Shown one piece after another: positions 12,898-36,800 of a stretch of DNA of 64,000 nt. A program made the position numbers and the translations under genes. A model generated the notes under the pieces. That model did not search any database. It had not been told where the DNA came from and saw only the letters and a list, made by a program, of their open reading frames with translations. The first letter of the stretch is position 1. Every line of letters begins with the position of its first letter. Origin of the DNA: Pyropia yezoensis (lineage: Eukaryota > Rhodophyta > Bangiophyceae > Bangiales > Bangiaceae); the NCBI GenBank assembly GCA_009829735.1, contig CM020618.1:34138894-34202893 (forward strand), read 5' to 3'.

Positions 12898-13060
12898 TTG
12901 CCCGTCCGGTCTCCCCCGGTGGCGCCGACACCCACGCGCTATGTACTCACGTCGAGGCACCCGAGGTGCCCCAAAGCATGCGCTTCCCCGTTGCGTCGCC
13001 CGTAGGCACAAAACGGCCCAAAAACAAAGCATGGCTCTCAAAACAAAGCATGGTCGGGCG

Positions 13061-14264: not shown

Positions 14265-14265
14265 T

Positions 14266-14280
14266 TGGTGGAGCAGCAGG
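14266..14280 (+). promoter_or_regulatory. Primer-binding site, inner element
   Basis: TGGTGGAGCAGCAGG lies one base after the LTR and equals the outer element's site, so both elements appear to use the same tRNA primer although their LTRs differ. Confidence 0.75.
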
Positions 14281-14489
14281 TGACGGGTTTCCGTCACCCT
14301 TGTGGTGACGCCGTCTTCGGCCCTGGCACACGGATAGGGATCCGGTCCTTTTCTTGTACTCGTGGTGTTGCGACCTGATCGATTGTGTTGAGCTTTTACC
14401 TGTGACTGTGACCTACTGTTACTCTCCCCAATCTACCCCCTCGCTCTCTTATTCGTGGTGATCGTTGCGTCGGTTGACTGATTGTGACT

Positions 14490-16673: not shown

Positions 16674-16681
16674 GAGGAAGG

Positions 16682-19336
16682 ATGACCGGGGGGCGCTGGG
16701 GTTACCCAAGCAAGCCACCCCGGAGTACCGCGGGGAAAGCCCCACGGAGAGCGCGGTTGAGCCGACGCCGCATCAACCCCCGGGTACACCTTCCGGCCCC
16801 GACGACACGGCGTCAGGGGATTGATGACCAACCTCCAAGGTTGGGAGGAGAGGACGGGAAGCCCCGTCACGTTGAACCAGACAAGGGCCCTGTTCAGGAT
16901 GCCCGAGCTACACCGGATATCGGTGTAGGACATGTGTTGTTTACCTTGGAGAACTTCAAGGTATCAGCCACACTGGGGGTTGACCCCCAGTCGACACGAT
17001 CGTACTACCCTGTACTGGATACAGGGGCTGGACCCAACCTTATCCGGAAGGATACCCTCCCGGACAAGTGGCTTCCACGAGTCAGAGTGACTCGGGGACC
17101 CACCATCAAGGACGCGAATGGTCGACCCATTCGTACGACCGCAGCGATGTCGCTGCAGGTTACCATCGGGGATCTCACCACGGAAGTTGACTTCCTGGTA
17201 TGTGAAACGCTATCGGTGCCCTGCATACTGGGGTGCACCTTCATCAACGTTCACGTTGATGCAATCCGGCCAGGCCGGAGGACCGTCGAGCTTCAAGAAG
17301 CCGACGGGACGAAGCGAGGACACACGGCTATCGTCAGGGATCTGACGCTACAAGGAAGCCACGTTAACGTGGCTGAGGTGTACGCAAGCGTCGAGCCGAA
17401 GACACTTCGATTGGCCAAGCGAACTCGCTTTGAGCCGTTGTCAGAGACAGTCCTCCCGGTTAACTGCGACCTCGCAGGCATCTGCAGAGTCCAGTCCAAC
17501 CTACGGACGTACAAGCGCCATGGGTTGACCATGGCCAACGGTCTCATAGACCTCCCAGCAGGAGGGTCGTCCCTCCTAGTGATGGCGAACTATCGCCGTA
17601 AGGCAGTCACCCTCCCGAAGGGAACTATCCTCGGGATTGCCGAACTCTACGAAGGAGATATCCTTACCCCTGATAAGGAAGGTCAAGTGGAACCACTTGA
17701 AGTACTGGCGGTCGCCGAGACCACCGAGCGACAGCAACCCGATGACGGGAAGCCTAACCCATCGGCGGCTCCGGTGGACCTGCCGCCAAAGGACCAAGAG
17801 GCCTTGAAGGCACTGGCCGAGGCTGACCTCGACCACCTTCCCCCTTCGGTAGCCGAAGGGGTACGACGGATGCTAAGAAAGCATGACGTTATGTGGACAG
17901 GCGGGGCGTTGGGGACCATTGGGGCAACCCAACATCGTATAGACCTGGTACCAGGCGCACGACCCGCCCGCTCACAACCGCACCGAGCGGGACCTATGCA
18001 ACGAGAGATCGTTGATGGAGAAGTGAAGATGATGAGGGAAGCTAAGGTGATCCGACCTTCGATGTCGGAATGGGGTGCCCCAGTCGTTATTGTGCCGAAG
18101 AAGGATCAAACCCCTCGGTTCTGCATCGATTATCGACGCCTCAACTTGGTTACCAAGAAGGACTCATACCCTTTACCAAGGATGGATGAATGCATCGACT
18201 CCCTGGGGGAGGCTACGGTGTTTACCACCATCGACTGCAATGCCGGATACTGGCAGATCCCGGTGGCGGACGAGGATATCCCCAAGACGGCATTCGTCTG
18301 TCACAGTGGAGTGTACGAGTTCCTAAGGATGCCCTTCGGATTGTCCAACGCCACCGCTACATTCCAGCGGGCTATCGACATCATACTGTCGGGGGTGAAG
18401 TGGCGTAACTGCCTAGTGTACCTCGATGACGTCATCGTCTTCTCGCGTAACATGGATGACCATGTACAACATGTTGACGAGGTACTCACCCTCTTGAGGA
18501 ACGCCGGGGTAACCCTGCGTCTGAAGAAGTACGCCTTCTTCCAACAGACGGTCGAGTATCTGGGCCACCAGATAACCCCTGGTAAACTAGGGGTACTCGA
18601 AGCCAATACCCGGGCACTCCGGGATGCCCGGTTCCCTAACACCCAGACGCAGCTCAAGAGCTTCCTGGGAATGTGCAATGTATACCGACGGTTCGTCAAG
18701 GACTTCGCTCGGATAGCTAAACCGTTAACGGTTCTTACGAGCAGTACCTTACCCAAGGTACTCCAACCCCCTTCGCCTAGCGAAGAGGAGGCATTCGAGT
18801 CGCTGAAGCGAGCCCTACTAGCCCCACCCGTCCTTGCGTTACCGCATAGACGGGGTACCTTCGTCATCGATGTCGATGCGTGTGATACACAAGTGGGATG
18901 CACCCTGTTACAGGGAGAGACGTTGATAGGTACCGACAACGTTATCCCGGACCTACGTCCGGTAGGGTACTTCAGCCGGACACTCAACCCGGCTGAGCGG
19001 AACTATAGTGCCACCGAGCGTGAATGCCTCGGAGTTATATGGGCAGTGCAACTGCTCCGTCCATACCTGGAGGGCTCCAGGTTCATCGTGAGGTCCGACC
19101 ACGAACCCCTACGATGGCTCCTCAACCTTGGTGACAAAGATTCCGATAGCCATGGGAGGCTAGCCCGATGGAGGCTGAAGATGGCCGAGCACGACTACCG
19201 CACGGTGTATAAGGCTGGGTCAACCCACCACCTCGGAGACGGGTTGTCTCGACTCGACACCCCGAGCGGGGATACCCGCCCGGTGGACGAGGACATCCCG
19301 GTAGTACCGGTGTGCATGGTGGGTAATGCTACCTAG
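16682..19336 (+). CDS. pol: Pol of the inner chromovirus: protease, reverse transcriptase, RNase H
   Basis: 884 codons. The aspartic protease motif VLDTGAGPNLIRK lies at about residues 116-128. RT follows, with VVIVPKKDQTPRFCIDYRRLN, MPFGLSNATATFQRA and the catalytic YLDDVIVFSR, then the thumb and connection (RSFLGMCNVYRRF-like). RNase H has FVIDVDACDTQVGCTLLQ, a central ATERECLGVIWAV and SDHEPLRWLL. The frame ends in TAG (19334-19336, context ACC TAG GGT), and integrase continues in the same frame. TAG is either a recent lesion or a read-through signal. The start lies 8 nt after the gag stop. The enzyme copies element RNA into cDNA. Confidence 0.94.
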   Translation: MTGGRWGYPSKPPRSTAGKAPRRARLSRRRINPRVHLPAPTTRRQGIDDQPPRLGGEDGKPRHVEPDKGPVQDARATPDIGVGHVLFTLENFKVSATLGVDPQSTRSYYPVLDTGAGPNLIRKDTLPDKWLPRVRVTRGPTIKDANGRPIRTTAAMSLQVTIGDLTTEVDFLVCETLSVPCILGCTFINVHVDAIRPGRRTVELQEADGTKRGHTAIVRDLTLQGSHVNVAEVYASVEPKTLRLAKRTRFEPLSETVLPVNCDLAGICRVQSNLRTYKRHGLTMANGLIDLPAGGSSLLVMANYRRKAVTLPKGTILGIAELYEGDILTPDKEGQVEPLEVLAVAETTERQQPDDGKPNPSAAPVDLPPKDQEALKALAEADLDHLPPSVAEGVRRMLRKHDVMWTGGALGTIGATQHRIDLVPGARPARSQPHRAGPMQREIVDGEVKMMREAKVIRPSMSEWGAPVVIVPKKDQTPRFCIDYRRLNLVTKKDSYPLPRMDECIDSLGEATVFTTIDCNAGYWQIPVADEDIPKTAFVCHSGVYEFLRMPFGLSNATATFQRAIDIILSGVKWRNCLVYLDDVIVFSRNMDDHVQHVDEVLTLLRNAGVTLRLKKYAFFQQTVEYLGHQITPGKLGVLEANTRALRDARFPNTQTQLKSFLGMCNVYRRFVKDFARIAKPLTVLTSSTLPKVLQPPSPSEEEAFESLKRALLAPPVLALPHRRGTFVIDVDACDTQVGCTLLQGETLIGTDNVIPDLRPVGYFSRTLNPAERNYSATERECLGVIWAVQLLRPYLEGSRFIVRSDHEPLRWLLNLGDKDSDSHGRLARWRLKMAEHDYRTVYKAGSTHHLGDGLSRLDTPSGDTRPVDEDIPVVPVCMVGNAT

Positions 19337-19339
19337 GGT

Positions 19340-20848
19340 ATGGCTGACCATACCATGGCACACCTTGCGTGCCCATTGACCCTCGCGGACTTCCGCGAGG
19401 CACAGGCCAACGACGATGACTGTAGACGTCATCGTGCTAACCTCCTGGCTGGTACGGCCGGCATCTTCTCCGAGAACGAAGACGGACTCATATACCGGCG
19501 GGCACCCGCCGATGGACGACATCAAGTCGTGGTTCCCGTGTCCTTACGGCAAGCCGTCATGAAACGAGAACATGAGAACCCTACAGCCGGACACCCGGGG
19601 GGTTCACGTATGTTCGCAGCAATGCGAAGGTTCTTCTACTGGCCAGCAATGGCCGTCGACGTGGTCGACCACGTAAGGGGATGCCACCCCTGTGCACGTA
19701 ACCGCACGAGTCTACATAGGCAGGCGTCTGCCATGAAGCTATTCCCACCCGATGGGCCCAACGAGCAAGTCGCTATCGACATACTCGGGCCACTTCCGGT
19801 AACGGAAGAAGGGAACAGGTACATCCTGGTCATGTCTGACCGCTTCACTAAGCTGTCACGAGCGGCAGCCATCCCGAATGATACGGCATACACCATCATG
19901 AACGCAGTGGTTGACCACTGGATCAGTGCATACGGAGTCATGAAGCAACTCCTCTCCGATAACGGAGCAAACCTTACGTCGGCATTCTGCACTAAGGTCC
20001 TGGGCATGTTCGGTATCGAACCACGTCGGGCATCCGACTACCACCCGCAGTCCAACGGGCAGGTGGAGCGGTTCAACCGCACCATCGTAAAGATGCTACA
20101 GTGCTACGTGGCCGAGCACACGAACACTTGGGACAGGCTTCTGTCCGTACTCACCCTGGCATACAATGCCAGGCCACATCGGAGCACAAACATTGCTCCG
20201 CTGGAGTGGGTCATGCCACTAGGCGTCGGTAACATGACGCTGCCACCCGGCAGGTGCACTCGGTATGATACACCGAAGGGCCGACCCGCCGAACGCATCC
20301 ACCTAGCTTGGTTGGCCAAGCTATCGTGGATGATTCCTAAGCTCAAGGGTGCCCTTGACAGAACACAACTTCGATATAAGAAGAACTTCGACGCCCGACT
20401 ACGGGTGCGCAACGCAACCCTGGTAACAGGTGACTGGGTCTATATCAGACACCAGAAGTTCCGCGGGAACAAGCTCATGCAACCGGTCAAGGGACCGTAC
20501 CAGATCCTCCACAGAGATGACCACTCTGTTATCTTACACTCCGATACGGAGATTCAACGCATCAGCATGAATGATGTCACACCTGCTCCGGTGCCGGAAC
20601 AGCCTCAGCCGGTACCGGCTGGGTTGCTACATGAAGCTCTTACAACCCACCGGTCAGATGACCCGGTGGGACCGGATGGGATTCCATACCAAGTAGAGAG
20701 CGTAGTCGGACACACCGACCCGGACCTACCAGGACCCTGGTACGTCAAGGTTATGTGGGTCGGATACGACTCACCCACCTGGGAACAGGCGGCAAATATA
20801 CCCCGCCAACTCCTCATGCCGTACATGAGGCGACGACGCCTACTGTAA
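19340..20848 (+). CDS. pol: Integrase with C-terminal chromodomain, inner chromovirus
   Basis: 502 codons in the same frame as the upstream pol after one TAG. The N-terminal HHCC zinc finger is H-x6-H (HENPTAGH) and CHPC. The DDE core shows VAIDILGPLPV, LLSDNGANLTS and YHPQSNGQVERFNR. After the GPF/Y-like segment (VKGPYQIL), a chromodomain-like end (PWYVKVMWVGYDSPTWEQA) marks it as a chromovirus. Such domains usually steer insertion to marked chromatin. The ATG at 19340 follows the TAG by one codon, so re-initiation is also possible. Confidence 0.93.
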   Translation: MADHTMAHLACPLTLADFREAQANDDDCRRHRANLLAGTAGIFSENEDGLIYRRAPADGRHQVVVPVSLRQAVMKREHENPTAGHPGGSRMFAAMRRFFYWPAMAVDVVDHVRGCHPCARNRTSLHRQASAMKLFPPDGPNEQVAIDILGPLPVTEEGNRYILVMSDRFTKLSRAAAIPNDTAYTIMNAVVDHWISAYGVMKQLLSDNGANLTSAFCTKVLGMFGIEPRRASDYHPQSNGQVERFNRTIVKMLQCYVAEHTNTWDRLLSVLTLAYNARPHRSTNIAPLEWVMPLGVGNMTLPPGRCTRYDTPKGRPAERIHLAWLAKLSWMIPKLKGALDRTQLRYKKNFDARLRVRNATLVTGDWVYIRHQKFRGNKLMQPVKGPYQILHRDDHSVILHSDTEIQRISMNDVTPAPVPEQPQPVPAGLLHEALTTHRSDDPVGPDGIPYQVESVVGHTDPDLPGPWYVKVMWVGYDSPTWEQAANIPRQLLMPYMRRRRLL

Positions 20849-20925
20849 CAACCCAACCGACACCGACTTCGGCTGTTGGGGGGTGAGGCTTATACCTACT
20901 AAGTAGGGTGTGACATGGTTACGGC

Positions 20926-21021
20926 AGACTTAGGTTTCTAAGTCAAATCAGACTTAGGTTTCTAAGTCGAACCAAGCTTAGGTAACTAAGTAGAGCTAAG
21001 CTTAGGTAACTAAGTAAAACC
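20926..21021. repeat. Four 24-bp tandem palindromic units in the inner element
   Basis: Units at 20926, 20950, 20974 and 20998 are exactly 24 bp apart. Units 1-2 contain ACTTAGGTTTCTAAGT and units 3-4 contain CTTAGGTAACTAAG, each a small palindrome. They lie between the end of integrase and the end of the antisense ORF, which converge on this spot. A role in termination, 3' processing or protein binding is plausible. Confidence 0.9.
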
Positions 21022-21092
21022 TGAACCTTAATAAGTTAACTTAAAGGTAAAGGCTAACTCCGATAATATCGAAGTAACTAGGGAGCTTACAC

Positions 21093-21149
21093 GGGAGGAT
21101 GACCTCCCCAAGCCAAGACACCAAGTGAGGGAGGATGACCTCCCCAAGC
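21093..21149. repeat. Pair of identical hairpins between integrase and antisense ORF
   Basis: A 21-bp word with the stem GGGAGG-ATGA-CCTCCC occurs at 21093-21113 and again at 21129-21149. With the 24-bp palindromes just upstream it makes this convergent intergenic gap unusually structured. Confidence 0.85.
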
Positions 21150-21326
21150 ATGAACCTACCGGAAGAAGTTGGACGGGAGGCTAGGCACCACTGAGCCAGA
21201 AGGGGTACTCCCCAGGGCAGCAAACAGAGGCAAGCAATGCCCCCAAAGGGGATGAGTTTATACTCACTACTACCCGGCTACCAAAAGGGTTGCCGGGGCC
21301 CTCTCCCGCACAAACAATAGCACTCC

Positions 21327-24056
21327 TCAGTGGGTAGACCCACTGCCCGAGGGAGGCCACTCACGCGTAAGCGCGTAGACCTCCGTGCTCCACCGGTCGG
21401 CAACGTCACTACGGTCGACCACCCGAGTTACCTCGGTGCATAGCTGGACGAGGGTGCTGCGGCCAGCCTCCACGTCCTCCAGAGCTTTCTGGAGGCGGTC
21501 CAGCACGCCACCGAAGCAACGCGCTGACCCAACCAGCGCAGCACCTGGGGGGATATCCCCCCAGCTAACAGAGAGACCCCCACGCATTGCGCGGGTAACA
21601 AGGGCGTCAACGCCCTCATCCCAGAGACGGGGACCCCTGTCATGTAGGACAGGGGCGGGAGGTGACACTGGCGCAGCCAGAGGAGCCACAGGAGCCGACA
21701 CGGCTACCACCGGAGCCGGTGGCACTTGATACGAGGCCCGGTAGGACCCTACCGAAGGGGCTCCACCGTAACCACGGCGGTACTCCGCCCGACGACGGGA
21801 CACCTCACGCTCCCCACCCACAGAGCCCCACTCTCGGGGACGACGGCCAACCGCCGCCGGCATCGGGTTACCGAACCACGGAGCAAGGACCTGAAGAGGG
21901 TCATGGATAACCATGGGAATACCCAGGTCAGGAACGGCCTCGGTGGACGCCCACCCATGGCAATTGGGCTCACCCGGCTGAGTACGCCGGATACGCAACG
22001 AGTGACGTGGCAAGGGGGTAGCCCCAGCCTGCGGGTCCCGGTACGGGGGAAGGGCCAACACCCCAGCCCAGTTCACGGCATCGTGAACAGCCAGCAGGGC
22101 TTCGAACTCCCGGGCCAACCCGGTCTTGGCGGCTATCAGATCCACTCCCAACTGCGCGATGTGCCGACGGACACCCGTCGGGAGATGAAACAGACGACCC
22201 TGCCGGCGGACGGACAGCAAGAAGGATGAAGCCTGCCCGAGGGAAACCTCAAGGGTGAAGGTACCCTGCAACGGGTGGACCGGTCGCGAGGCCAACACAC
22301 TCCCGAAGTAGCGAAGGCAGGAGCCGGTGTCAAACCGGAAAGCAGGGGCGGGTTCCCACCCCTCCTGCCATAGCGGCGGGCGCACGGGAGTGTATACCGG
22401 AGCACGACCGTTGCCGGTCTGCAACGCACACGTTATATCCGTGCGGAACGCATCCGCCATGACACCATGGTTACGTCGCCAACTCGACGCCGACTTCAAC
22501 CCCGCCATGGGCGGGTAGGGAGCCGTCAACGACAGATACGGGGGTACCCCCGGGTAGTAGTCGAAGTCGGGATACCGACCGGTACGGCTCACCGTCTCCC
22601 CAAACGCAACCGGCTCCGCCGCCGCCGCAATCCCCCGAGCACTAGCCGGGTAGTCAATCTCCCGCGGCAACGCGGGGGCAATCAAGTCGCAGACCCCGAA
22701 GTTGGGGTCGAGGTAGACCTCACCCCGTCCCACCCGGGTGCGCCAAAGCTGCGCATGCCGGTCGTCCGGCTGACTCAGGATCCAATGATGTTCCACCCGG
22801 ACCGCGTTCGGCTGGTTGACCAGCCGCACCAACTCCCGCTCCCAGCTCGGGTCCACCTTAACGCGGCGGGAGGACTCTCCACGGGGATGCACCAGGTGGA
22901 AGTCCACCCGCATACGCCCATCGGACTCCATCGACTCTTGCACCGTGAGGCCTCGAACCCGAGCCACCAAGTCGGACACCGACATGGCGGGTTGACCCGC
23001 CGCCACGGCGACGCCGCCACCCAACGGGGCAACCCGGGCAGGACCAGGAAGAATCGGGGGCGCCGGGGGACGCACCACCGGCAGAGGGGCCGACGTCGGA
23101 GATGGACGAGGCCGAGGAGGAAGAAGAAGGGCGGGCGCCCGCCCGGAGTAACTCCCGGTGTCAACCGCCATGGGAGAAGGAGCGTCTTGACCGCTCGACG
23201 CCCGCGGCACCGCAGGTACGGTACCGGCGCCGGCACCACCCGTCGGCGTAGCCCCCGCCTCGGAAGGGGAAGGCACTTGGACAGCCTCCGGAGCCGGAGC
23301 CCCGGCCGTGCGGACACCCGCACCGTCTTGACCCGCCGCACCGGGTGTCGCACCGCCACCACCACCCGCGTCAACGTCGGGACCGCCTCGAGGAGTCACC
23401 GCCCGGACACCCGGACCACCTTGACCAGCCGGAGTCGGCTGCGGGTCGCCACCTCCGCCGCAGGGCGGACCATCTTGAGGTAGCTGCGGTGAGCCGGCAC
23501 CGGCACCAGGCTCCATCCGGGCAGCCGGCAGAGAGGGGGTAGAAGCCGCCACGCGCGGTTGACCGCCGGGTTGACCTCCGGCCGACGGCACCGTCGTGCC
23601 GCTGCACACGGACGACAGTCCTCCGGCCGACAGACGGACGGACACCGCAGGCCCGTCGTCGTCAGACGAGCTCACCCCGTAACGCGCGGCGTCGGGACCG
23701 ACAGGCGCGTCGTCCTCCATCTCCTCCCCGATCAGGAGGTCTTCCTCCTCTCCAAGCACCTGGGGATAGGACATGATAACGGGTGCAGAGTCCCCCGCGA
23801 CCACAAGCCGTCGACGGCTACGACCCGGTACGGTGGGATAACCGGGACGAGCCAGGGAAGCACGGGCACCCGCGCTTATGACCACAAACGGCCACGAGAA
23901 GCGCCGCAGGCGCGCGGGTCGACCCGCGCTCCACGAGGCTACGAACGGGCTCCACCCAGGCACCTGGGCGGGCCGGGGCCACACCCCCGTACGGGGCAAC
24001 CAAGAGGGGTTCACCCCGAAACCGCCCCCGCGAAAAGCGGGAGCGGCCGCCCCCAT
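21327..24056 (-). CDS. Antisense ORF of the inner chromovirus, unknown accessory protein
   Basis: An uninterrupted 909-codon frame runs opposite to gag-pol between integrase and the 3' LTR. An internal ATG at 23774 (MSYPQVLGEEEDLL) is an alternative start giving 815 residues. The N-terminal half is acidic, then Gly/Pro/Ala-rich. From about residue 358 the composition becomes protein-like: MSVSDLVARVRGLTVQ, WERELVRLVNQPNAVRVEHH, PPYLSL (505), LRYFGSVLASRPVHPL (581) and LLSVRRQGRLFHLP (613). No known domain is recognised. The core of residues 505-665 aligns with residues 217-375 of the outer element's antisense ORF in the same order and spacing. A promoter could lie in the 3' LTR read backwards. 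Conservation between two diverged elements argues for a real protein, with role unknown. Confidence 0.7.
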   Translation of the reverse strand: MGAAAPAFRGGGFGVNPSWLPRTGVWPRPAQVPGWSPFVASWSAGRPARLRRFSWPFVVISAGARASLARPGYPTVPGRSRRRLVVAGDSAPVIMSYPQVLGEEEDLLIGEEMEDDAPVGPDAARYGVSSSDDDGPAVSVRLSAGGLSSVCSGTTVPSAGGQPGGQPRVAASTPSLPAARMEPGAGAGSPQLPQDGPPCGGGGDPQPTPAGQGGPGVRAVTPRGGPDVDAGGGGGATPGAAGQDGAGVRTAGAPAPEAVQVPSPSEAGATPTGGAGAGTVPAVPRASSGQDAPSPMAVDTGSYSGRAPALLLPPRPRPSPTSAPLPVVRPPAPPILPGPARVAPLGGGVAVAAGQPAMSVSDLVARVRGLTVQESMESDGRMRVDFHLVHPRGESSRRVKVDPSWERELVRLVNQPNAVRVEHHWILSQPDDRHAQLWRTRVGRGEVYLDPNFGVCDLIAPALPREIDYPASARGIAAAAEPVAFGETVSRTGRYPDFDYYPGVPPYLSLTAPYPPMAGLKSASSWRRNHGVMADAFRTDITCALQTGNGRAPVYTPVRPPLWQEGWEPAPAFRFDTGSCLRYFGSVLASRPVHPLQGTFTLEVSLGQASSFLLSVRRQGRLFHLPTGVRRHIAQLGVDLIAAKTGLAREFEALLAVHDAVNWAGVLALPPYRDPQAGATPLPRHSLRIRRTQPGEPNCHGWASTEAVPDLGIPMVIHDPLQVLAPWFGNPMPAAVGRRPREWGSVGGEREVSRRRAEYRRGYGGAPSVGSYRASYQVPPAPVVAVSAPVAPLAAPVSPPAPVLHDRGPRLWDEGVDALVTRAMRGGLSVSWGDIPPGAALVGSARCFGGVLDRLQKALEDVEAGRSTLVQLCTEVTRVVDRSDVADRWSTEVYALTREWPPSGSGSTH

Positions 24057-24346
24057 TCACTCGGTAACACGAGAGGGGCTCCCCTACCACCAGGCACCTG
24101 GTGGCGGATCCGCTTGCACCACCCCTCGGAAAGAGGGGTCGTGAACAGAACCCGCATCGGGAATTTAACGGTCCGGAAAACGGATCGTGTGTGTACCACA
24201 CAAAGGGGGGCACCCCCCTCGGACAACCTCGAAAAGGGGTGTCTGTCGCGACGGGGCGCAAAGCCCCACCCGACGGGTAAACAGTCACGCGACCCACTTA
24301 CATTCGGTAACCCGAATGCAACTCGACCCGAGGACGGGCCGAATCT

Positions 24347-24358
24347 AAGGGGGGGATA
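24347..24358 (+). promoter_or_regulatory. Polypurine tract, inner element
   Basis: AAGGGGGGGATA ends directly at the TG of the 3' LTR, the normal position for plus-strand cDNA priming. Confidence 0.8.
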
Positions 24359-24720
24359 TGTAGCAATATGGTTGTCCGTATTGTGACCCTAATATCAGGG
24401 GGGCTACTTCTAATCCTTAACTTTCAATTTGAGAGTCCGAGCTGGTCACGGTATCTATAAGTTACGTATGACCAGAGGGACTTGCATCTTGGGGTGGAGG
24501 GTAGTTAGTAGTGTCTCCGAGGGTTTATAACGAGGGGGCCGGTGGCGAATCCACCGCCGGCCAAGGAGAACAACAAACCCCTCCCATTTGGGCTCCCATC
24601 TTGGTCCCGTGGCTTGCGCTCCAAGGACAGCAACCTTGGCCTCCCGGTGACGTTGGTGCCGATCCCCCTTGGTGAGTGTTCCCTGAGAGTGGACGCGCGA
24701 CGGATTCCTATTGTGCTACA
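24359..24720 (+). repeat. 3' LTR of the inner chromovirus
   Basis: 362 bp, near-identical to 13903-14264, followed by the AACGT target duplication. The open frame that runs from this LTR into the outer gag is an accident of the insertion; the Gag start is at 13650. Confidence 0.97.
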
Positions 24721-24725
24721 AACGT

Positions 24726-26419
24726 CCCAAGGGGTGAGGACTGTCCCCGCGGGTTCCACTCGGGTTGGAGCCAACTTTGGCTTGGAGCCGTCGCCAACTA
24801 GGCTTTCGGGGGACGGCGGACCTCCGTTGGTCGGCGATGGGCTCGCGCCCATGCCCCCGGTTGAGACCCCTGAGGAACGTGGTTACCCCTCAGGTGGTCT
24901 CCCGGAGGCGGACCGAGACTCAACTGGAGTCGTCAATCCACTCCTCGCGGAAACTGTCCGTCGGGAGGCGACCAATGTGTTGCGGCAGACTTTGCCGGAC
25001 CTGGTGGTCACGATGACGAAGACTATTCTGAATCAGATTGTGGCGAGTTTGCCAGATGGCCTTAATGTCCAGACCGGATCGGGGCTTTCGAGCCCGCAGG
25101 CGCAGGGGGAATCCCTCCTCACGCCTATCTCGGGTCGCCCCGAACAGGGGGCGACACCTGTGACTCCCAACGAGGGAGCCACACCATACTCGTTGGGGCG
25201 TACGCCCTTCATGGGGGAGTTCCCCCCGGAAACGCCGGCGGCTACACCAAGCGCGCCGCGCCAGACTATGGGCACTGAGGGTGAACTTGCCCCAGTGCCA
25301 CAGCGGCTGTTCCCTCAACATGAGGTGCCGCCCAAGATCCAGGTAGCCAACCCGGTCTACCAGAGGATCTTTCATTGTGAGACCTACGCCCTCCACAATA
25401 GGTCGGTGGCGGATGGTCCTGACCAGGCCCAAGCCATGGGCCGTGCCAAGAAGAATGCACTTCACTCTTTTGGGCACAAAGCGGAGTGGGATAGAACTCC
25501 CCCCCTCCGTGTCTTGGAGTTTCTGCGTCGTTTCACAAAAGCCTGTGACGACAATTCCATAAGTGAAGGCATGGCTGTCTATATGATACAGGAGTTTACG
25601 AAGGGCGACCTCCGGACAGAACTTATGTCCGTCATGCCCAGTTCCTCAAGTGGAGGCGCTGGTGAGGTGACGTCCTCTTTGGAGCTCGTCAACTGGTTGT
25701 TGAGAGCCATGGTTGATGAAGCGGCGTTGGCTTCTCAAGTCGAGGAGTTTACGCAAGCCCATCAGGAAGAGGCGGAGGACGAGTTGTCCTTTGCGGAGCG
25801 AGTCCGTAAGCTCAACAATCTTTGTGGGTTTCTTCATCCACAAGCTGTGGTGAAGAGTCGGTTTGTGGAGGGACTCCATTGGTCAGTCCGGATGGAGACC
25901 CGGGAGCAGAACACTGCCCGGGCGACCCTGGCCGAGTTGCCTAGGTTCGCCTACCGCAGAGGCGAGGCCTACCGCAAGTTGCAGGAGGAACAAAGCCAGG
26001 AGCGTCAAGCTGAGTTGGCCAAGGCACGGGAGGAGGCGCGCCAGGCCAGAGAGTTGAGAGAGGCACGCCGAATCCGCAAGGAGAGGGTGGTAGCTGCCGT
26101 GGGAACTTCCCAGGGTATCTCTTCGTCTTCCCCAGTTGAGAAGACCCCTCCGGGAACTGACAATCGGTGTTGGAACTGCAACTCCGATGGACACTGGGCA
26201 TATGATTGCCCCAAGTTGAGTAAACGCATCCAACAACTTGTTAGGAATGCGAGTAAGAAGACGGCTACGAACGAAGTACGTTCACACCGCGAGGGTGGGT
26301 CTCGACCGGTGGTGGCGGTCGCCACACCCTCGGCGGAGGGGGCGGACACGTCGTCCTCGGACTCGTCGTCTTCCCCTTCGTCCTCAGATTCGGACGCCAA
26401 GTCGGCGGGAAACGAATGA
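24726..26419 (+). pseudogene. gag: gag of the outer chromovirus, 3' part
   Basis: The continuation of the gag cut at 13902, in the matching phase. It carries the capsid-like region (ETYALHNRSVADGPDQAQAM, LRVLEFLRRFTKAC, about 25380-25550), a charged helical stretch (QEEQSQERQAELAKAREEAR) and the knuckle CWNCNSDGHWAYDC (CX2CX4HX4C). It ends in a Ser/acid-rich tail closing with AGNE. Its TGA (26417-26419) overlaps the pol ATG (26416-26418) as ATGA. Apart from the inner insertion no break is visible. Confidence 0.9.
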
Positions 26420-28302
26420 CCGTTGGAGCTGGTCGTCCGAAGCTCACAACGGCAGCCTCGGCCAAGTGGGTCAAGAGGACGAACCAACCGTGCCGGATAC
26501 TGCGGCGACCTAAGGGAGTCCGCCAACCTCGGGTAGGACTCCCCAAGAACGTAAACCCACGTCGGGTCATCGCGGTGCTGACGGGTGAGAACTTCCAGGT
26601 GGCTGGACGGGTGCAACTTGCCCCCGGCCGCGCCTGTTGTTCCCGTATCGTACTTGATACCGGGTCAGGAGCCTCCTTGATACGCAAGTCGCTATTACCA
26701 AAGGAGATGAAGCTCCAACGCTGGAAGTCTAAAGCTGACCATCTGATCGATATCAATGGTGAGGTACTTCCCATCGTTGGTGCCGTGACCCTACCAACTA
26801 GGTTGGGGACCCATGAGGTCGACGTGACCTATGGAGTAGTTGAGAATATATCGGTACCCCTGCTTCTGGGTACCCCTTATGTTGTTACACAAGTGCCTTT
26901 GATTTGTGGCCCTGAGTATTGGGTCAGGTTGATGAATCGGGAAACCATCCCCATCCTTGGTAAGGGAAAGTCTGTGGCTCCTGTGACAGTCTCACAGTCG
27001 AAGCCTGTTTGTTCTGTGACGGAAGGGTTTACTGCTACCCTGCGTTTAGCCCGTAAAGTCACGTTGCCCCCCAACTCGGTGGCGCACGTTGACGTTGTAA
27101 CTGATTATACGGGGAACGGGTTGGTGCACCCTTACCCCCGTCTTGCTCGCAAGCACCAAGTGCATGTTGCCCTTGGCACGACGGACTCCAAAGCCGGAGT
27201 CCCGTGGAGGATCCAGGTGATGAACCTGAGCTCGTCACCCAAGTACTTCAAGTCGGGAGCCAAGTTCGGCTATATCGACCAACACGAGGGACCGGTAGTA
27301 GCGGTCACCCTCAACGCGGGCGCAAGTAGTGACCTGAAGTCCGGAAAGGAGAAGCATCAAGCCAAGTCGGCCGCCTCTCCTCGGCCCCATGTGAACATGG
27401 AGGGTGTCCCACCCAGGTTGAGGGTTCAAGTTGAACGCCTCCTGGACCAATATCACAAGTTGTGGGATGGTCAATTGGGACTCATGAGAGCCACCCAACA
27501 CCGGATCGAGTTGAAGCCCGGTGCACCCCCTATACGCCAACAACCGTATAGGGGAGGACCCCGTTCAAGGGCCCTCGTTAAGGACCAATTTGCTCGCATG
27601 GAGGCCCTCGATGTGATCGAGGCCAGTAACGCCGAGCGGGCGAGTCCGGTGGTTATCGTCCCCAAAGTTGATGGGACCCCCCGGTTCTGTATCGACTACC
27701 GTAAGCTCAACGAGAGCACGGTGAAGGACTGTTATCCCCTACCTAAAATGGACGACTGTCTGGACTCTCTGGGGGAGGCAAACGTGTTCTCTACCCTGGA
27801 CTGTAACGCGGGGTACTGGCAAATTCCCATTGCCCCGGAGGACAGGCATAAAAATACCTTTACCTGTCACTGTGGTACCTACCAGTGCAAGCGTCTACCG
27901 TGTGGCCTGTGTAACGTGCCGGCAACTTTCCAGCGCGCTATGGACATGATTCTGGCCGGAGCACGGTGGCAGATCTGTCTCGTGTACCTAGACGATATCA
28001 TTGTGTTCTCCCGAAGTCCGGAGGAACACATTGGCCATCTTGGCCAGGTGTTCAAGCTACTTGCTGACGCCGGTGTGTCACTGAAGGCGAGTAAGTGCCA
28101 CCTCTTCACTCAAGAGGTGGAATACTTGGGACATGTTGTCCATCCGGGGTGTCTCAGTGTCAACGAGAAAAACTTGAGGGCCATCCATGAGGCTCAGTAC
28201 CCTCGGACACAGACCCAGATGAGGAGCTTCCTCGGCATGTGTAACGTGTACCGACGTTTCACCAAGGGCTTCGCCAAGGTGGCGAAACCGTTGAATGAGT
28301 GA
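26416..28302 (+). pseudogene. pol: Pol of the outer chromovirus: protease and reverse transcriptase
   Basis: 628 codons starting on the ATGA overlap with gag. The protease motif is VLDTGSGASLIRKSLLP. RT has VVIVPKVDGTPRFCIDYRKL, LPCGLCNVPATFQRA and YLDDIIVFSRS. The frame stops at TGA 28300-28302, just after RSFLGMCNVYRRFTKGFAKV, while RNase H continues in the same frame. The local sequence GAGTGAGTGAG suggests slippage or point mutation. This stop is at a different place from the inner element's TAG, so it looks like a lesion, not a shared signal. Confidence 0.92.
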
Positions 28303-30394
28303 GTGAGCTCAACGCCACCGAAGAACCTGCCTCCCCCAAGTCGGGTGGAGCAGGAATCCTTTGAGAATCTTCGGGACCTTCTGCTGAAGCCCCCCATCTT
28401 GGCTATTCCCAGGTTGGGAGGCCGCTACATCCTGGATGTGGACGCTAGCTACGACGAACTTGGTTGTGTGTTGCTTCAGCAGCAGCCGGACAAGGAGTAC
28501 TTGCCGGTGGGATACTTCAGCAAGGGGCTGAACTCGGCCGAGAAGAACTACGGAGTCACCGAGTTGGAAGGACTCGCAGTGGTGTGGGCGGTGACGTCAC
28601 TTCGTCACTACCTAGAGGGTGAGAAGTTCCTCATCCGCTGTGACCACCGCGCGTTGCAGTTCATCTTCAAGACGGATTGTACGAGCACTCGTCTCAACCG
28701 GTGGAGGGTGCGACTGGCACCCTTCAACTTGGATATTGAGTACCGACCTGGCAGGCAACATGCCCTTGCCGACGGCCTCTCTCGGGTACCTACCGAGGGG
28801 CTGGACACTAACCCAGTCGATGAGGACATCCCCATCGTAGGGGTAGTCACGCGCTCGGGTCAGGCGTTGAACCCCGAGGCGCCAGGGAACAAGAAGTACT
28901 TGCCCCTGTCCCTGGACGAGGTGGTGAAGGCCCAGGCCAAGGATCCCTTCTGCAAGTCGCAGAGGGATACACTGGATACAGTGGCGGAGACGCGGTTCTT
29001 CCTGGGAGACGATGGCCTCCTCATGAGGAGGGGGGTATTCCAGGGGACCGAACAACTTGTCGTCCCCGCATCCCTCAAGGACAGTATCCTTGAGAGGGAG
29101 CATAACGCTCCCACAGGTGGACACCTGGGGTCTAGTAAACTGTACCTGACCCTGAGGACCAGGTACGACTGGCCGTCCATGGTGGTGGACATCTACAGTT
29201 GGGTGGCTGCCTGCACAAGTTGTGCACAGAACCGTCTGATGGAACGGCGGCCTACTACGGCTATGCTATTGTTCCCGGCCAAGGAGCCCTTTGCCGCGTT
29301 GGCGATGGACATCCTTGGGCCACTGCCAGTGACCGAGGAGGGCAACCAGTACCTCCTGGTCATCTGTGACCGCTTCACGAAACTTACGCGAGCGATCCCA
29401 CTGGCAGAGATCACGGCCATGTCGGTGGTGTCAGCCTTCCTAGATCACTGGGTTGCCGCGTATGGCATTCCGGATAGTACACTATCGGGCACCGCAATTT
29501 GCGTCTGTACTGTTTCAGGGAGTGCTGGATATGTTGGGGGATAAGGCAAACTATGCCACCCCCTACCACCCACAAACTAATGGGCAGGTGGAGCGCTTCA
29601 ATAAAACTATTGTTCGGCAGCTGCGCCACTACGTGAGTGAGCACGTGAAAACGTGGGACCAATACATTTCTATTCTGACCACTGCCTACGATTCGCAGGT
29701 TCACTCATCTACCGGGGAAGTACCCCTCGCTTTTGTGACCCCCCGTCGCGTGCGGTCTATTGCCGTACGGCGGCCGCCCCCAACTAGGGAGGATGGTGGC
29801 AGGATGCCTACTCCTACTGAGAGGGAGGCGGAGTTCGCTGCTAGGCTTGAAAACCTCATCCCTAAAGTCAGGGCTGAGATGGACAAAGCACAAAAGCGCT
29901 ACAAGCGCACCTTTGACAAAAAGGTGCGCAACGCCAAGCATGTCCCCAAGCAGGGTGACTGGGTATTGGTCCACTCACACACCCCAACTGGGGGTAAGTT
30001 GGTATTCCAGACGAAGGGGCCGTACCAGGTCCTTCGTACTGATGGGCGGCGCTTCACCATCGAAAGTGACGATGGGGTCCGCACAGTGAACGGACAGGAC
30101 GTGGTCAAAGTTGCACCACCGCCTGCAGGCGACCCAGCTAGGGCGCGTGCGTTGGAAGCCTGGCGCCTCCCCTCACTGCCTGCGGCCAAACAGGGCCCGC
30201 AGGAGTACGTGTTCGATAAGTTCATCGACCACGGCTGGGATGAGGACACTGACCGCCTCATGTTGAGGGTGCGTTGGTTCAGCTACAAAGCCAAGGATGA
30301 TACGTGGGAATATGTGGAGGACCTTCCCGCTGAGAAGGTCCGGGCATACTGTGCCCGGAATGAGATAGACCCTAACAGCCCCCCCTCAATGTGA
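28303..30394 (+). pseudogene. pol: RNase H, integrase and chromodomain of the outer chromovirus, frameshifted
   Basis: RNase H (ILDVDASYDELGCVLLQ, VTELEGLAVVWAV, CDHRALQFIF) and the integrase zinc finger (H-x6-H, CTSC) plus first Asp (LAMDILGPLPV) are in one frame to about 29485. The frame then shifts: after YGIPDSTLSG the homologous continuation APQFASVLFQ...YHPQTNGQVERFNKT is in the next frame, to 30394. The C-terminus has VFDKFIDHGWDEDT...LRVRWFSYKAKDDTWEYVEDL, a chromodomain. The usual D of the second catalytic motif falls at the frameshift. Not functional as it stands. Confidence 0.9.
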
Positions 30395-30505
30395 GGGAAG
30401 GCTGAGTAACATTGCCAAGAGAGTGCTTCAAGTCGAAGTGGTACGCAGAGTGGCTTTCAACTAAAGCCCTTACCCTCACACTCTCACAACAAAGGCAGCT
30501 GCCAA

Positions 30506-32620
30506 CTAGGCATGCATGCTAGACTCTCCAACCCCACGGCCCTCGCCCTCACGTGGAGGCGAGCGGCGAGACCCCCGGCGATAACGCTCCCCACCAGTCG
30601 GAGGGACCGGTGGCTCCAAGTCGGACCCGTCGCGCCCCTCACGGTCGCGCAAGTGGCGACGACCGCGGCTGCACTTCTGCTTAGTCTTGCGCGCAAGTTG
30701 GCGACGCAGATGCCGGACCGACTCCGACTCTGACGGAGTCGAGGACTCCGAGACGGAGTAAGACAACTCGTCCTCGGACACGGAGGGAGAGCGCCGCGAG
30801 CGTCGGCGACGACGGCGGGGAGGCGAGTATGCCCGGCTCGCACGACGTTTGCCACGCCCAAGTGGGGCTGGCTGGGGCATAATAGCCCCAATGCGAGCCA
30901 ACTCGGCCTTCATAAACTCCGCCACCGACTCGCAACTCGCGGTCGCCACTGCAGTACGAACGCGCTCCTCAAGTTGAGGAGTCTCGGAAGTTTGAAGGGT
31001 TGCGGTCGACGCGGCCAACCAGGAAATGGTGCGCACCAACGTGGTGATCATCATCTCTGAGGTTAGAGGCGTGGGTGGTAACACCAACTTGGGGTATACC
31101 GTCAGGAGGGTGGCCCCCAAGTTCGGGGACACCGGAGTGGACGACTCAACGGCCACGCTAATCGGGATGTTCCCGTGCGGCTGGTAGGGGACAGGAGGAA
31201 GCGGAGAGGCACGCCGAGGTGGCGGGACCCGGGTGTAACTGCGACCCCAACTTGGGGCCCCCGCAGTGGGTTGAGTCATATGGTCATCATGTGAGGGCAC
31301 GGCCATAACTATGGCCTTGTCCGGGGGTGGCGCAGTGTGGCGATCCACCCCCGGGGCATACGGGTAGTCCCCGATGCCCAACCCCTCTCGTAGGACCACA
31401 CGGCCGTCGTGAAGTTCACGAGCGACCCATACGAACTGGCGAAGTGCGCCATCGTCCTTGGGCCCACGAGTGGGGCGGCGCAACTTGTGCTCGATGCTCT
31501 CCCACTCGATAAACTTGTGGAGGCGGAGCATCTCCTCAAGTAGAGTGAGTTGTCCTGATGAGCACCCCTCAGCAACTAGCTGAGGGGTGAGCTGTTCCAA
31601 ACCTTGGATAAGCCGGAGGGGGAGATGCCAGAGCATCCCCCGCCGCTGAACACAAGACACCCAGGTCGACATGACCTCGAGGAGCCACTGGGTGGCCAAC
31701 ATGGCCCACACCAGGTGATCAGGGCCAGCCGTCAACATGACGGAGCCGAAGTGGTCAAGCAACCGTGGCAGCAATGCCGGGAACTCGTAGGGGACCTCAA
31801 CTTGAGGCCACCACTCGGGCTTCTTCGGATAGGACTGCTCCTTACTGGCAGCAGACTGCTGAGGAAACTCAAGTTGAGCCGAGGTCACCAAGTAGGGACC
31901 TCGCCGGAAGTCGTTCTCCATCCGCACATCAAAGTGATGAGTGTGCGGATCGGCCTCGTGAAGGTACGGGGGGCGAGCTGCCACCGCGTCCCAAGTAAAG
32001 GTCGGCAAGTCGCCGGGACCCGGGATAGTTCCCCCGCGGTCCACCATGGCCTTGGCCCGCTGTACGTCTTCGACCTCCTCGTCGTCCAGGAAGGCAAACT
32101 GGTCCGTCCTGAAGCCGGCAGGGAACCCGACCCTATGGGGATACTTCTCCCGTAGGCGGTCCCATACCCGACCCATCGCTGCGCCAAGTCGGCCACAGCG
32201 AAGAACAGTCAACCCCTCCTCATATAGAAGCCAAGCGGGGTAAAACCACCGCCCCAAGGCCTCACGCGGGACCACTTGTCCCGCCTCCGGGGGAGATCCC
32301 GCCGTCAACCCAAAGCCGGGTGACTCGGGAGTCCCATCCCCCGGAGCGATCGCAGAGTCCCCGCCGGAAGTCCCGGCGGGCGCTGCACCGCAGGAGGTGT
32401 TCTCCATGCGTTCGTCGAGAGAGTCCGTCTCCACCCCCGGGGTCGCCATGGCTCTCCCCAAGGTGGGGAGAGACGCCCTGGCTACAGCGCCACGAGACCC
32501 GCCTCGAGTTGAGGGGGACTCGGATCGTGGGTAGACGGGTGGCCTCCCCAGCGTGGGGCGGCCCAGTGGAAGGTGAAGGGGCGGTGGTGGTGATGGTGAA
32601 GTGCGAACCGGGGAGAGCAA
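30506..32620 (-). CDS. Antisense ORF of the outer chromovirus, unknown accessory protein
   Basis: A 704-codon frame antisense to pol. The likely start is the ATG at 32446 (MATPGVETDSL), giving 646 residues. The core has PPYL (217), EVPYEFPALLPRLL (275), DHFGSV (289), SCVQRRGMLWHLPLRLI (322) and LLEEMLRLHKFIEW (360). This matches the inner element's antisense protein in order and spacing (PPYL, YFGSV, SVRRQGRLFHLP, FEALLAVHDAVNW). The C-terminus is basic and Ser/Arg-rich (PRRRRRRSRRS, SVSESSTPSESES), like an RNA- or DNA-binding or nuclear-localised tail. It is intact although the host element's pol is broken. No known family is recognised. Confidence 0.7.
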   Translation of the reverse strand: MLSPVRTSPSPPPPLHLPLGRPTLGRPPVYPRSESPSTRGGSRGAVARASLPTLGRAMATPGVETDSLDERMENTSCGAAPAGTSGGDSAIAPGDGTPESPGFGLTAGSPPEAGQVVPREALGRWFYPAWLLYEEGLTVLRCGRLGAAMGRVWDRLREKYPHRVGFPAGFRTDQFAFLDDEEVEDVQRAKAMVDRGGTIPGPGDLPTFTWDAVAARPPYLHEADPHTHHFDVRMENDFRRGPYLVTSAQLEFPQQSAASKEQSYPKKPEWWPQVEVPYEFPALLPRLLDHFGSVMLTAGPDHLVWAMLATQWLLEVMSTWVSCVQRRGMLWHLPLRLIQGLEQLTPQLVAEGCSSGQLTLLEEMLRLHKFIEWESIEHKLRRPTRGPKDDGALRQFVWVARELHDGRVVLREGLGIGDYPYAPGVDRHTAPPPDKAIVMAVPSHDDHMTQPTAGAPSWGRSYTRVPPPRRASPLPPVPYQPHGNIPISVAVESSTPVSPNLGATLLTVYPKLVLPPTPLTSEMMITTLVRTISWLAASTATLQTSETPQLEERVRTAVATASCESVAEFMKAELARIGAIMPQPAPLGRGKRRASRAYSPPRRRRRRSRRSPSVSEDELSYSVSESSTPSESESVRHLRRQLARKTKQKCSRGRRHLRDREGRDGSDLEPPVPPTGGERYRRGSRRSPPREGEGRGVGESSMHA

Positions 32621-32787: not shown

Positions 32788-33256
32788 TGTGGCAGTATTG
32801 ACCCCCAGGTACGGGGGCGACACGTGCCATGCAAGGGGCGGCAGGCCACTAGCCTGATCCGTTCCTCCCCCTGCATTTGGGTCCGTATTCCCTAAGTTTG
32901 GGATAGTTAGCTTAGTAGTAAATCCAACTTGGATTTGAGGGTTTTCTGCATTTATCGTCTTGAATTTTCGTGTGGCCCGGTGGGCAGGTGCTGGGGTGGG
33001 AGATTCTGAGTGGCGAGATTCTGAGGGGACCCTGGGGGGATAAGGGGAGGGACAGCGGGGCTTGGCCCTGCGTCCCCGTCCCGACCAAGAAACTGTTGGA
33101 CCACACACCATCCTCTTGTTTGTCAGTGGGGGGTTTGCCCCACAACAGGGACAGAGTGTGTGCGACTTTCACTTCTTCCGGTTCCCCCGACACCGGAGGC
33201 AGCCCTCGAACACCGCCCCAACTTGGGTGCCGTGTGTGTAAGTGGTTTTTGCCACA
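32788..33256 (+). repeat. 3' LTR of the outer chromovirus
   Basis: 469 bp, matching 13061-13530 with about ten differences including one G-run length change. GGGCG, the second copy of the target duplication, follows it. Confidence 0.96.
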
Positions 33257-33830
33257 GGGCGTGCGCACGAAAGGAGTGCAGCCCAAGTTTGTCCCAAACG
33301 AAGGTGTCCGGCGTGCGGCGCCTAGTGCGCTGCCTCAGCCGGCCCCAGACACCAGTCGGTCCGCAGGTCCGCGAGGCCTGTAGGCACGGATCGATCGAGT
33401 CGACCAAATTGGCCAGCCGGCTAGCCAGTCACATCGCTGCAATGCTGCAGCGAGGACGCTCTAACGGACTTGCGAGCTGTGGCAGATGTGGCTCGTCATG
33501 GGTGCTGACGGTGGCGCCTTTCGACAGGCCATGATAGGCTGTCGATGGCTGCTGTCGTGCGGCCGGCAGACACCGAGAGACAGCGGCTGACTCATCTTGA
33601 GCCTGGAAGGTACACCGCGTCATGCCCCACAATACAAGGAATTGATCAATGTTGCCAGGAGTTGGTTCGGCAGGATCTGTAGGGAGAGGTCTTAGTAGTT
33701 TTCCCTTAGATACCGTGTAATTATCCCTTAGATACCGCCAAGTGTTTGAAGCGCTTTTGGCATCGCCAGGTAGCACCTCCAAGGCAGGCGCGGCGGACGG
33801 TGGCTCAAAGGCGGGTTTTGCAATGGAGGA

Positions 33831-36800
33831 ATGACTCATCGACTTTCCTCCGTACGCAGACGCCGCAGGGGCCGGCCGCCCCGAGGTCAGGTCAACGTCA
33901 GCATATCCGAGTGCCTCGTCGCCGCCGCTGCGGATGCCAGTGTGTTTCATGGCGCGTGCCTGGACACAGGCACGGAGCGGACTGTGATTGGATGCCAGCA
34001 GGCAGCTGCCTACGCGCGCTTTACTGGCAGCGAGCTGCACATGGCGGAGCCACAGAAGGCCGCCTTTCGCTTCAGTGGATTGGACTACCCCAGCCTGGGT
34101 TTGTTGTGCATCCATCTGCCGTTAGGTGACGACCTCTTCCTACCCATGGATGTGGACGTGGTCGACGTTAACGTACCTTTCTTGTATGGCCTCGACGCTT
34201 TGGACGCGAACAAGATGCACGTCAACAAAAATTCCATTGAGCTGGTATGCGTCGCCTTCAAGGTATCAGTCCCCGTCATGCGCAAGTAAGGGCACGTCTT
34301 CCTGAAGTGGAGCCGAGACACTCTATTCACCATGGTGGAGGTGGAGCGTCTGCATCGTCAATTTTGTCACCTATCACCTGAGCGTTTGTTTGCCTTGCTG
34401 CGTCAGGCACATGACCCGCAAGCCAACAAGGAGACCCTTGAACGTCTGGAGGAAGTGACCGCGTCGTGTGACACGTGTCAACTACTCGCTAAGGAGCCGA
34501 CTCGGTTCCGCGTGTCGCTGCCTTCGGAGGACATTGTGTTCACTAGGACGGTGATGTTCGACCTTATGTGGCTGGAAAGTGAGCCTATTCTGCATGTGGT
34601 GGACAAGGATACGGGCTTCAACGCGGCGGCATTTACGCGCGACGGTAAAACAGCCGACTCTGCATGGAACGTGTACCCCCGCATCTGGGTCTGCCCCAAT
34701 CCTGGGCGCTCGGACGCGATGAACACGGACCAGGGGCCACAGCTGACGTCAGCAAAGTGACGGGCGCTGCTGCAAGCCGTGGGAAAGAAGCACATTGAGT
34801 CGGGCATTGAGTCCCACAACGCTCTGGGATCTGGTGAACGCTTCGATTCATATCCTAGGCAGATCTACCGCCGCGTGCGGGCCGACCATCCAACGCTGCC
34901 GGCGGAGCACGCGCTCTCCCTCGCCGTCTCCGCAATGAACAACACCGTTGGACCAGCTCGGCTTGTGCCGACTCTGCTTGTGCTCGGTGTTGTCCCACGC
35001 ATTTCGATTTGCCATGTTGACCTGCCGGCACCAAAAGTGCGACTCGAGGCGATGAGGACGGCACGGGACGAGATGCTGCGAACCGTTGCAAGAGCCCGAT
35101 TGCGAAAAGCCCTCCGCACGCGTGTGCCGCGAGCCACCGACGCGGACGTTTCTGCCGGCATGGCGGTGCTGGTGTTTCGTGAGAAACCGGTCAACTGCTG
35201 GGTGGGGCCATACACGATCATTATGGCGGAAGTCAAGCACGTCTGGCTTGACGTGGACGGCAACCTCCAGCTGTTTTCAATCGATAAGGTGAAGTGGTAT
35301 CACCACAGCTCTGTTCCTGGTGCTGATGGGGATGGAAGCGACCCAACGCCTCCAGGCGGACCTGACATCTCAGCGCCACCCCTACAACATGAAGGGGAAC
35401 TGTCTGTGCGCGAGGTGGGCGATGAGGAGCTGGACCAGCTGATGTATGCCAGACATACTGGAGAGCAGCTGCTGTCCGATATCAGCGCTGGACTTCACAC
35501 CTTCTCACACACCGAACCGCCCCCTTAGAACATTTCGAGCGTCAGCTCAACGGGAAGTGGACGGCCTGCTGGCCCACGGCGCAATGAGAGTCGTCAAGAA
35601 GCGATCCTTGCCCAAGGATGCAATCATTGTCGGAGGTCGTTTCGTCACTTAAGCACGTCGGATCCCCTAAAGAGCAACCAAAGTCACGCTACGTTGCGCA
35701 AGAAAACGAGGATCGAGATAAGATATTTGTGGTGCACAACCTTTCGACGTTGCGACAGCGCTCAACGACGATCGTGGTGTCCACCAGTGCGGTGCGCGGA
35801 CTGCGGCTTCTTGCGCATGACGTGAACGAGTCATACCTCCAAAGCATGGAGAAGATGACCCGTGACGTCTACTTGCAGCCAAGAGCGGATGACCGCGAGT
35901 ACTTTGCGGTCAGCGAGGACGAGGTGCTACACCTGGTACGACCTCTTTACGGGACTCGCGACGCTGGGGATTACTGGGCCGTGACGTTCATTGCCCATGT
36001 GGAGGGTGATCTGGGAATGGCGCCTACAACAGGAGATCCTGCGCTGTTCATACTGAACGGAGCAGACTACCTGGACGGTCTGCTGGGCGCATATGTCGAC
36101 AACAGCATACTTGGCGGCAACGAGACCTTCCAGAAGCTGACCAGACAGCACTAGATCAGTTCGATGCCAAGCCCCGGCAGTGGGACAACTTTGAGTTCCT
36201 CGGCGTCACAATCACTTCCATCCGAGGCCTTCATTAGTGCATCAAGCTGAACCAGGTGGACTACATCGAAGCCCTGAGCTTTCTGGGTCTGTCAGCGACG
36301 TGCGACAAGTTTGCGTCCGTGCGCGCCTCTGTCGCTTTGCTCTTGCACACCCGACCGTACTTGTGTTGCGCGATCAACCACGCGGCCCAAGCCATTCCCC
36401 AGTCGTACTGCAAGCGGCATGTACTGGAGCTCAATGGCTCAAGCCACTCCCAAGTCGTACTGCAAGCGGCGTCTACTGCAGCTCAATGGCTATCAAGCGC
36501 GCTCAGAACACAAGCGATTGGACAATGCTGTACCGTCCTCTCCGACGTGGGTCGCTACGGCTGAAGGTGTAAGCAGATGCCTCGTTTGCGTCTAACGATG
36601 ACGGGTCGTCCCAGCTGGGCTACTTGATTTGGCTGTGCGACGATCGCAGCGCCTGTCATGTGCTGGCTTACTCGAGATAAAAGTCACGCCGAGTGGTGCG
36701 TTCTATTATAGCGGGCGAGGTGTGCGCATTTGCCAACGCATTGGACGACGCTTTTGTTACCAAGCATGACTGGAAGCGTATCTTCCACCACCACATCCCG

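Follow-up and report, generated by a model that had tools for sequence, protein, structure and literature searches.

Antisense reading frames of two nested Ty3 elements

We analyzed 64,000 nucleotides of the genome of the red alga Pyropia yezoensis (assembly GCA_009829735.1, contig CM020618.1; this whole stretch is hereafter the window), in which one Ty3/gypsy retrotransposon (the inner element, 13903-24720) sits within another (the outer element, 13061-33256), as delimited by pairs of long terminal repeats (LTRs) and their flanks. A first-pass annotation had proposed that each element carries a long minus-strand open reading frame (ORF) between integrase and the 3' LTR, and that the two ORFs encode homologous proteins under selection. 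Both ORFs are present, and each of their products contains a conserved core:

21327-24056, minus strand: inner antisense ORF, 909 codons; 815 amino acids from the ATG at 23774
22059-22694, minus strand: conserved core of the inner protein, residues 455-666
30506-32620, minus strand: outer antisense ORF, 704 codons from a TTG (open frame 724); 647 amino acids from the ATG at 32449
31493-32167, minus strand: conserved core of the outer protein, residues 152-376

The in-frame ATGs at 23774 and 32449 are the likely true starts, and one relative recovered by protein searches, P0001, begins at the position of the outer ATG. The integrase and antisense stops lie 111 bp apart in the outer element and 478 bp apart in the inner one. 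In the same stretches, each of the five remaining frames contains 8-28 stops. When the pol-to-LTR interval was simulated with a first-order Markov model (1,000 trials per element), the longest antisense frame was at most 415 codons (inner) or 430 codons (outer), versus 909 and 724 open codons observed; antisense ORFs of this length are unlikely to arise by chance. A search for TATA-like motifs was uninformative: the inner interval contains one on each strand and the outer interval contains none.

The two cores, which had been aligned by eye, are 24% identical over 230 amino acids by BLASTP (E = 4e-10, single pair), with an alignment score of z = 18 against 2,000 shuffles. Comparison of hidden Markov models with hhalign agrees (81.5%, E = 1e-5, a value not controlled by shuffling). 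Among the 36 pairings of reading frames from the two 3' regions, antisense with antisense is the only composition-corrected match at E ≤ 0.01 (E = 7e-9; 2e-8 with low-complexity masking). The C-termini, described earlier as unrelated, have no detectable similarity between inner and outer proteins (z = -1.0).

Distribution, inheritance and selection

The genome searched comprises 107.5 Mb in 11 contigs, three of them at 29-44 Mb. From 150 matches to the integrase family PF00665 we took 11 integrase-anchored 5-kb stretches, hand-picked for differing ORF-length and score classes and mostly containing long ORFs; a twelfth, of 294 bases, was left out. In eight of the 11 (L039, L040, L043, L045, L046, L047, L048 and L049), integrase is followed downstream by an antisense ORF with a match among the antisense ORFs of other lineages. 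Two of these eight, L046 and L048, belong to the outer family, and in L045 the frame is split. Querying with the L047 protein identified a further lineage (L051; mostly 25-31% identity); each of the five loci retrieved for this lineage has an antisense ORF that matches L047, with the L053 ORF split. An integrase-bearing ORF lies upstream in four of these five; in L052 its place is taken by an outer-family element in opposite orientation. The initial proposal was therefore sound as to homology and too narrow in scope: at least six integrase lineages carry the gene, namely inner, outer, clade A (L039/L043/L040), L049, L047 and L051, with integrases 36-53% identical over long alignments.

Profile comparisons with hhalign link inner to clade A (90%), outer to clade A (92.7%) and clade A to L049 (97.8%). 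By BLASTP against a small custom set, the L051 lineage matches L047 (E = 2e-19), clade A (1e-7) and outer (2e-6). Of 12 pairs compared across lineages in the C-terminal domain, L040-L049 alone beats all 500 shuffles (z = 5.3); inner-L040 reaches z = 2.7, with 12 of 500 shuffles equally good. Two clade-A copies keep fragments of the antisense protein by the integrase ORF, the first 156 amino acids in L041 and the C-terminal 113 in L044, and are possible deletion derivatives. At L042, where an inner-family element starts soon past integrase, the search for an antisense match was negative.

Position and orientation are strongly conserved. A clade-A match lies 1.2-1.8 kb downstream of 40 of the 150 integrases, antisense in all 40 and upstream in none (68 of 74 matches used; six short secondary pieces were dropped). 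The 62 L047-type matches add six integrases, again all antisense, so that, judged from coordinates only, 46 of 150 have the gene no more than 6 kb downstream, in antisense orientation in all 46 cases. Two L047-type matches are situated 4.0 and 5.9 kb upstream of an integrase and probably belong to neighboring copies of the same family. In the window elements the gene lies between pol and the 3' LTR; the 46 were placed relative to integrase alone.

Core and integrase trees, each built from eight rows (the outer integrase row is filled in 38% of columns), concur in grouping L047 with L051, in clade A and in joining L049 to clade A. Every fork supported in both is common to both, and neither tree settles the placement of inner and outer. 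Core tip branches are about twice as long as those of integrase (median 1.07 vs 0.53), and long branches lead to the inner and L049 cores.

Beyond this genome, protein searches detected relatives of the inner type (P0002-P0014) and of the outer type (P0001); those with a named source are from Pyropia vietnamensis (Rhodophyta, Bangiales), where they are annotated as hypothetical proteins. Three P. vietnamensis proteins are 61-64% identical over the inner core region, and the C-terminal part is also kept in some relatives from this species and, by eye, in P0012. A protein search with the seven-row alignment returned inner-type relatives only, and no relative was found in viral contigs.

Synonymous and nonsynonymous changes have not accumulated at equal rates in the antisense frame: the synonymous ones are in excess, both between families and among copies. 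Together with the composition-corrected core match, this excess bears out the earlier proposal of selection over a by-product of GC bias. The ratio of nonsynonymous to synonymous substitution rates (dN/dS) in seven pairs, which are not independent, is 0.25, 0.28, 0.39, 0.19, 0.51, 0.17 and 0.19. Other frames give 0.81-5.8, save one sense frame whose values of 0.22-0.68 arise because it shares its third-position register with the antisense frame, yet which contains 9-33 stops. Integrase dN/dS is 0.08-0.10 in three clade-A pairs.

Across 30 copies of the outer family, substitutions present in at least two copies comprise 121 synonymous, 46 nonsynonymous and one stop change, and singletons 122, 178 and five, compared with a neutral expectation of 26-34% synonymous. 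Inherited changes have therefore been filtered and single-copy changes much less so, as expected of a gene that functions while the element is active and degrades once a copy has inserted. The inner family (eight copies) also has a synonymous excess, with synonymous:nonsynonymous:stop counts of 14:12:0 for shared changes and 37:31:1 for singletons. Shared substitutions per site at codon positions 1, 2 and 3 of the 30 outer copies are 0.037, 0.025 and 0.174, resembling the outer integrase end (0.049, 0.037 and 0.177). In the LTR and the ATG-to-LTR stretch they amount to 0.055 and 0.063, about one-third of the third-position rate, which is consistent with regulation of the antisense gene from this region; LTR function alone could also explain it.

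The frame is mostly unbroken in three families: 37 of 50 inner, 49 of 63 outer and 45 of 59 L049 copies lack an internal stop (131 of 172 together), these being the best-scoring copies at the top of long candidate lists, with a bias toward intact ones. The first-pass annotation would have been refuted by a frame broken in most other copies; here the outcome is mixed, since most clade-A matches contain stops. Among L047-type matches 46 of 62 are stop-free, many of them short, and no frame-shifting indel occurs in the 29 outer and seven inner best-scoring copies compared.

The two elements of the window

Both elements are of the Ty3/gypsy type, as first annotated: they have paired LTRs, 5-bp target duplications and purine tracts, and a Pfam scan recovers the order reverse transcriptase (RT), RNase H, integrase, with an H2C2 integrase. 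Their remaining features are as follows:

13061-13530, plus strand: outer 5' LTR; GGGCG target duplication at 13056-13060, read off the flanks
13903-14264, plus strand: inner 5' LTR, TG...CA ends; 99.4% identical to 24359-24720
14484-16673, plus strand: inner gag-like ORF; CCHC zinc knuckle weak (E = 0.07)
16682-19336, plus strand: inner protease-RT-RNase H ORF (RVT_1, E = 1e-33)
19340-20848, plus strand: inner integrase ORF, ending 478 bp short of the antisense stop
24359-24720, plus strand: inner 3' LTR; purine tract directly 5' of the LTR
24542-26419, plus strand: outer gag ORF (zf-CCHC, E = 1e-5); the open frame starts within the inner LTR
26416-28302, plus strand: outer protease-RT ORF (RVT_1, E = 2e-33)
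28303-30394, plus strand: outer RNase H-integrase-chromodomain region (Chromo, E = 8e-4, below cut-off)
32788-33256, plus strand: outer 3' LTR, preceded by a purine tract; GGGCG at 33257-33261

The inner LTRs differ at two of 362 positions and the element is flanked on each side by AACGT; the outer LTRs are about 98% identical. The sequence TGGTGGAGCAGCAGG, identical in the two elements just inside the 5' LTR, is presumably the primer-binding site of both. The outer RNase H-integrase region is split in the window copy (ORFs 28303-29544 and 29453-30394). The first-pass term chromovirus depends on matches to a chromodomain at the integrase C-terminus, which exceed the Pfam cut-off in the L051 family only (E = 8e-9); matches below cut-off occur in the outer element and in L039, L043, L047 and L049 (E = 4e-4 to 8e-4), and the Pfam scan found none in the inner integrase. 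The L047 integrase ORF (L047:1-1788) combines a weak chromodomain with an above-cut-off match to a Dam-type adenine methyltransferase (PF05869, residues 447-516, E = 2.7e-7). An L051-family ORF aligns across this stretch, yet has no Dam match at E ≤ 0.1, and a literature search by title found no Dam-type domain in such an integrase.

Elsewhere in the window, an inverted copy of the outer LTR (11666-12113; 96% complementary, 972 nucleotides from the outer 5' LTR arm) may be a lone LTR or a piece of another copy. About 1.5 kb past the outer element, a plus-strand ORF of 249 amino acids (34779-35528) has no Pfam match and by eye resembles an integrase C-terminal remnant. At 40232-40375, a 72-bp tandem duplication, 78% alike, lies within a leucine- and cysteine-rich ORF of 244 amino acids.

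A candidate regulator encoded in antisense

The antisense proteins are homologous across six or more integrase lineages, their gene keeps its place and orientation, its tree agrees with that of integrase, and purifying selection acts on the protein. We therefore consider it likely that this is an old antisense accessory gene of the Ty3 elements of this red alga, probably encoding a nuclear regulator of the element. Chromodomain-type Ty3 elements of the alga would thus carry a fourth gene between pol and the 3' LTR, tail to tail with integrase. Its mRNA may start within the 3' LTR or immediately internal to it and end near the integrase stop, and the product, predicted to be soluble and probably nuclear, may tune the element's own expression through transcription, RNA handling or relief from silencing.

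Because antisense genes at this place are known in Grande/Retand and Boty, these proteins constitute a new family of an already known kind. Boty, from Botrytis cinerea, is a Ty3-type element. It carries an additional antisense gene, brtn, according to a title cited in PMC7264820. Passages of PMC7264820 and PMC11963269 describe antisense ORFs between pol and the 3' LTR as an established feature in plants and as reported from a fungus too, with function unknown; the words "chromovirus" and "algae" are absent from PMC7264820, and no such gene in red algae was found among titles and abstract openings of the open-licence literature. Retand, Grande and RIRE2 have an antisense ORF, in Retand with the TRP28 domain (Transposase_28, PF04195), as excerpted from PMC7264820; they differ in belonging to a non-chromovirus lineage confined to flowering plants. 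HBZ of human T-cell leukemia virus type 1 (HTLV-1) and other retroviral antisense genes are likewise encoded in antisense under 3' LTR control and have regulatory roles (PMC10186651, in part), although HBZ is another protein in another host. The Steamer-like element of Mytilus is an LTR element with an antisense message, but its antisense ORF spans just 67 amino acids (PMC10974842, in part). By analogy, the red-algal protein may be functionally like retroviral HBZ or Grande GENE23.

The protein comprises about 580-1000 amino acids in a single uninterrupted frame and evolves fast. A low-complexity N-terminus is followed by one conserved core of about 200 residues and a lineage-specific tail, and arginine-rich stretches, in some cases in the tail, occur in some of seven proteins. 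Pfam scans of the antisense proteins gave no match above cut-off, TRP28 included, and no bZIP at E ≤ 1. A search of the P. yezoensis genome itself for PF04195 was empty, as was its control. A profile search of the PDB gave no match (UHRF1 at E = 0.48 is noise). DUF6214 was rejected as a candidate (E = 0.01-0.1 in two of eight members, below cut-off and outside the core), as was an RS domain (RS/SR dipeptides 8 vs a shuffled mean of 10, and 29 vs 23; no clear excess). There is no obvious membrane anchor, since no 19-residue window in seven proteins exceeds a hydropathy of 1.6.

Possible, though clearly not favored, is that the protein counters silencing by host methylation or small-RNA defense rather than regulating transcription or RNA export. 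VANC is a known anti-silencing protein. The red-algal protein evolves faster than integrase, as expected in host conflict, and contains no known domain that we could find. We think it improbable that the antisense transcript acts as RNA, controlling copy number through double-stranded or small interfering RNA, with the protein incidental. Such a role has been proposed for plant antisense ORFs (PMC7264820, in part), and retroviral antisense RNAs also function as RNA (PMC10186651, in part); however, selection here acts on amino acids and leaves third positions freer, and a role as RNA could exist alongside that of the protein.

An envelope-like or particle protein is a distinctly improbable alternative: the position is that of env-like genes, but orientation is antisense in every case placed, the seven proteins lack a hydrophobic segment, and those sampled antisense ORFs with a match to an antisense protein did not match either gag of the window by BLASTP at E 0.05. 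Independent capture of a host gene by two or more elements, a process known for LTR elements (PMC11963269, in part), is very unlikely given the identical place and orientation across lineages, the concurrence of gene and integrase trees and the graded identity of clade-A relatives (45-100% for main pieces). That the ORFs are by-products of GC-rich composition (64-68% in the ORFs) or of a sense-strand coding frame is barely credible: an uncorrected sense/sense score (185) exceeds that of the antisense pair (151), but it reflects low-complexity proline/arginine similarity that composition correction removes, sense frames contain 2-33 stops over the stretches compared in seven pairs, the open frames far exceed the simulated ones, and the codon-position pattern refutes the idea.

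Several observations weigh against the accessory-gene interpretation. Constraint on the antisense gene is about threefold weaker than on integrase; synonymous divergence (dS) in clade-A pairs is 0.9-2.2, near saturation; the outer/L046 pair, at 0.51, falls little under its sense frames (0.68-0.89); and in the eight inner copies the synonymous share does not differ between shared and singleton changes. L047 alone is not linked to other lineages by hhalign, and its membership depends on a match to L046 (3e-5) and the L051 bridge. Two of the 11 sampled loci (L041 and L044) retain only an end-piece of the ORF, and 104 of 150 integrases are unmatched in the clade-A and L047-type searches, which score best candidates only and into which the inner, outer and L049 match lists were not entered; for these two reasons we conclude that some elements are without the gene. 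Only 30 of 68 clade-A matches are stop-free, in a list that reaches old copies and excludes six further short pieces; since old copies are expected to decay, this leaves our assessment unchanged. Finally, the regulatory role is argued by analogy, and antisense expression from DNA sequence.

A single genome here holds several diverged lineages, with intact copies, in which an antisense gene descended together with pol and was retained as a protein-coding gene. The multi-lineage alignment offers a basis for identifying essential residues, predicting a fold and planning tests, and the result bears on annotation, P. vietnamensis relatives being labeled hypothetical proteins. We regard as unlikely the broader idea that the gene is ancestral to chromodomain Ty3 elements far beyond red algae, with brtn and TRP28 as sequence-eroded relatives; if true, antisense coding would count as an old fourth gene in this class of retroelements. 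The phenomenon of antisense genes in such elements extends to red algae.
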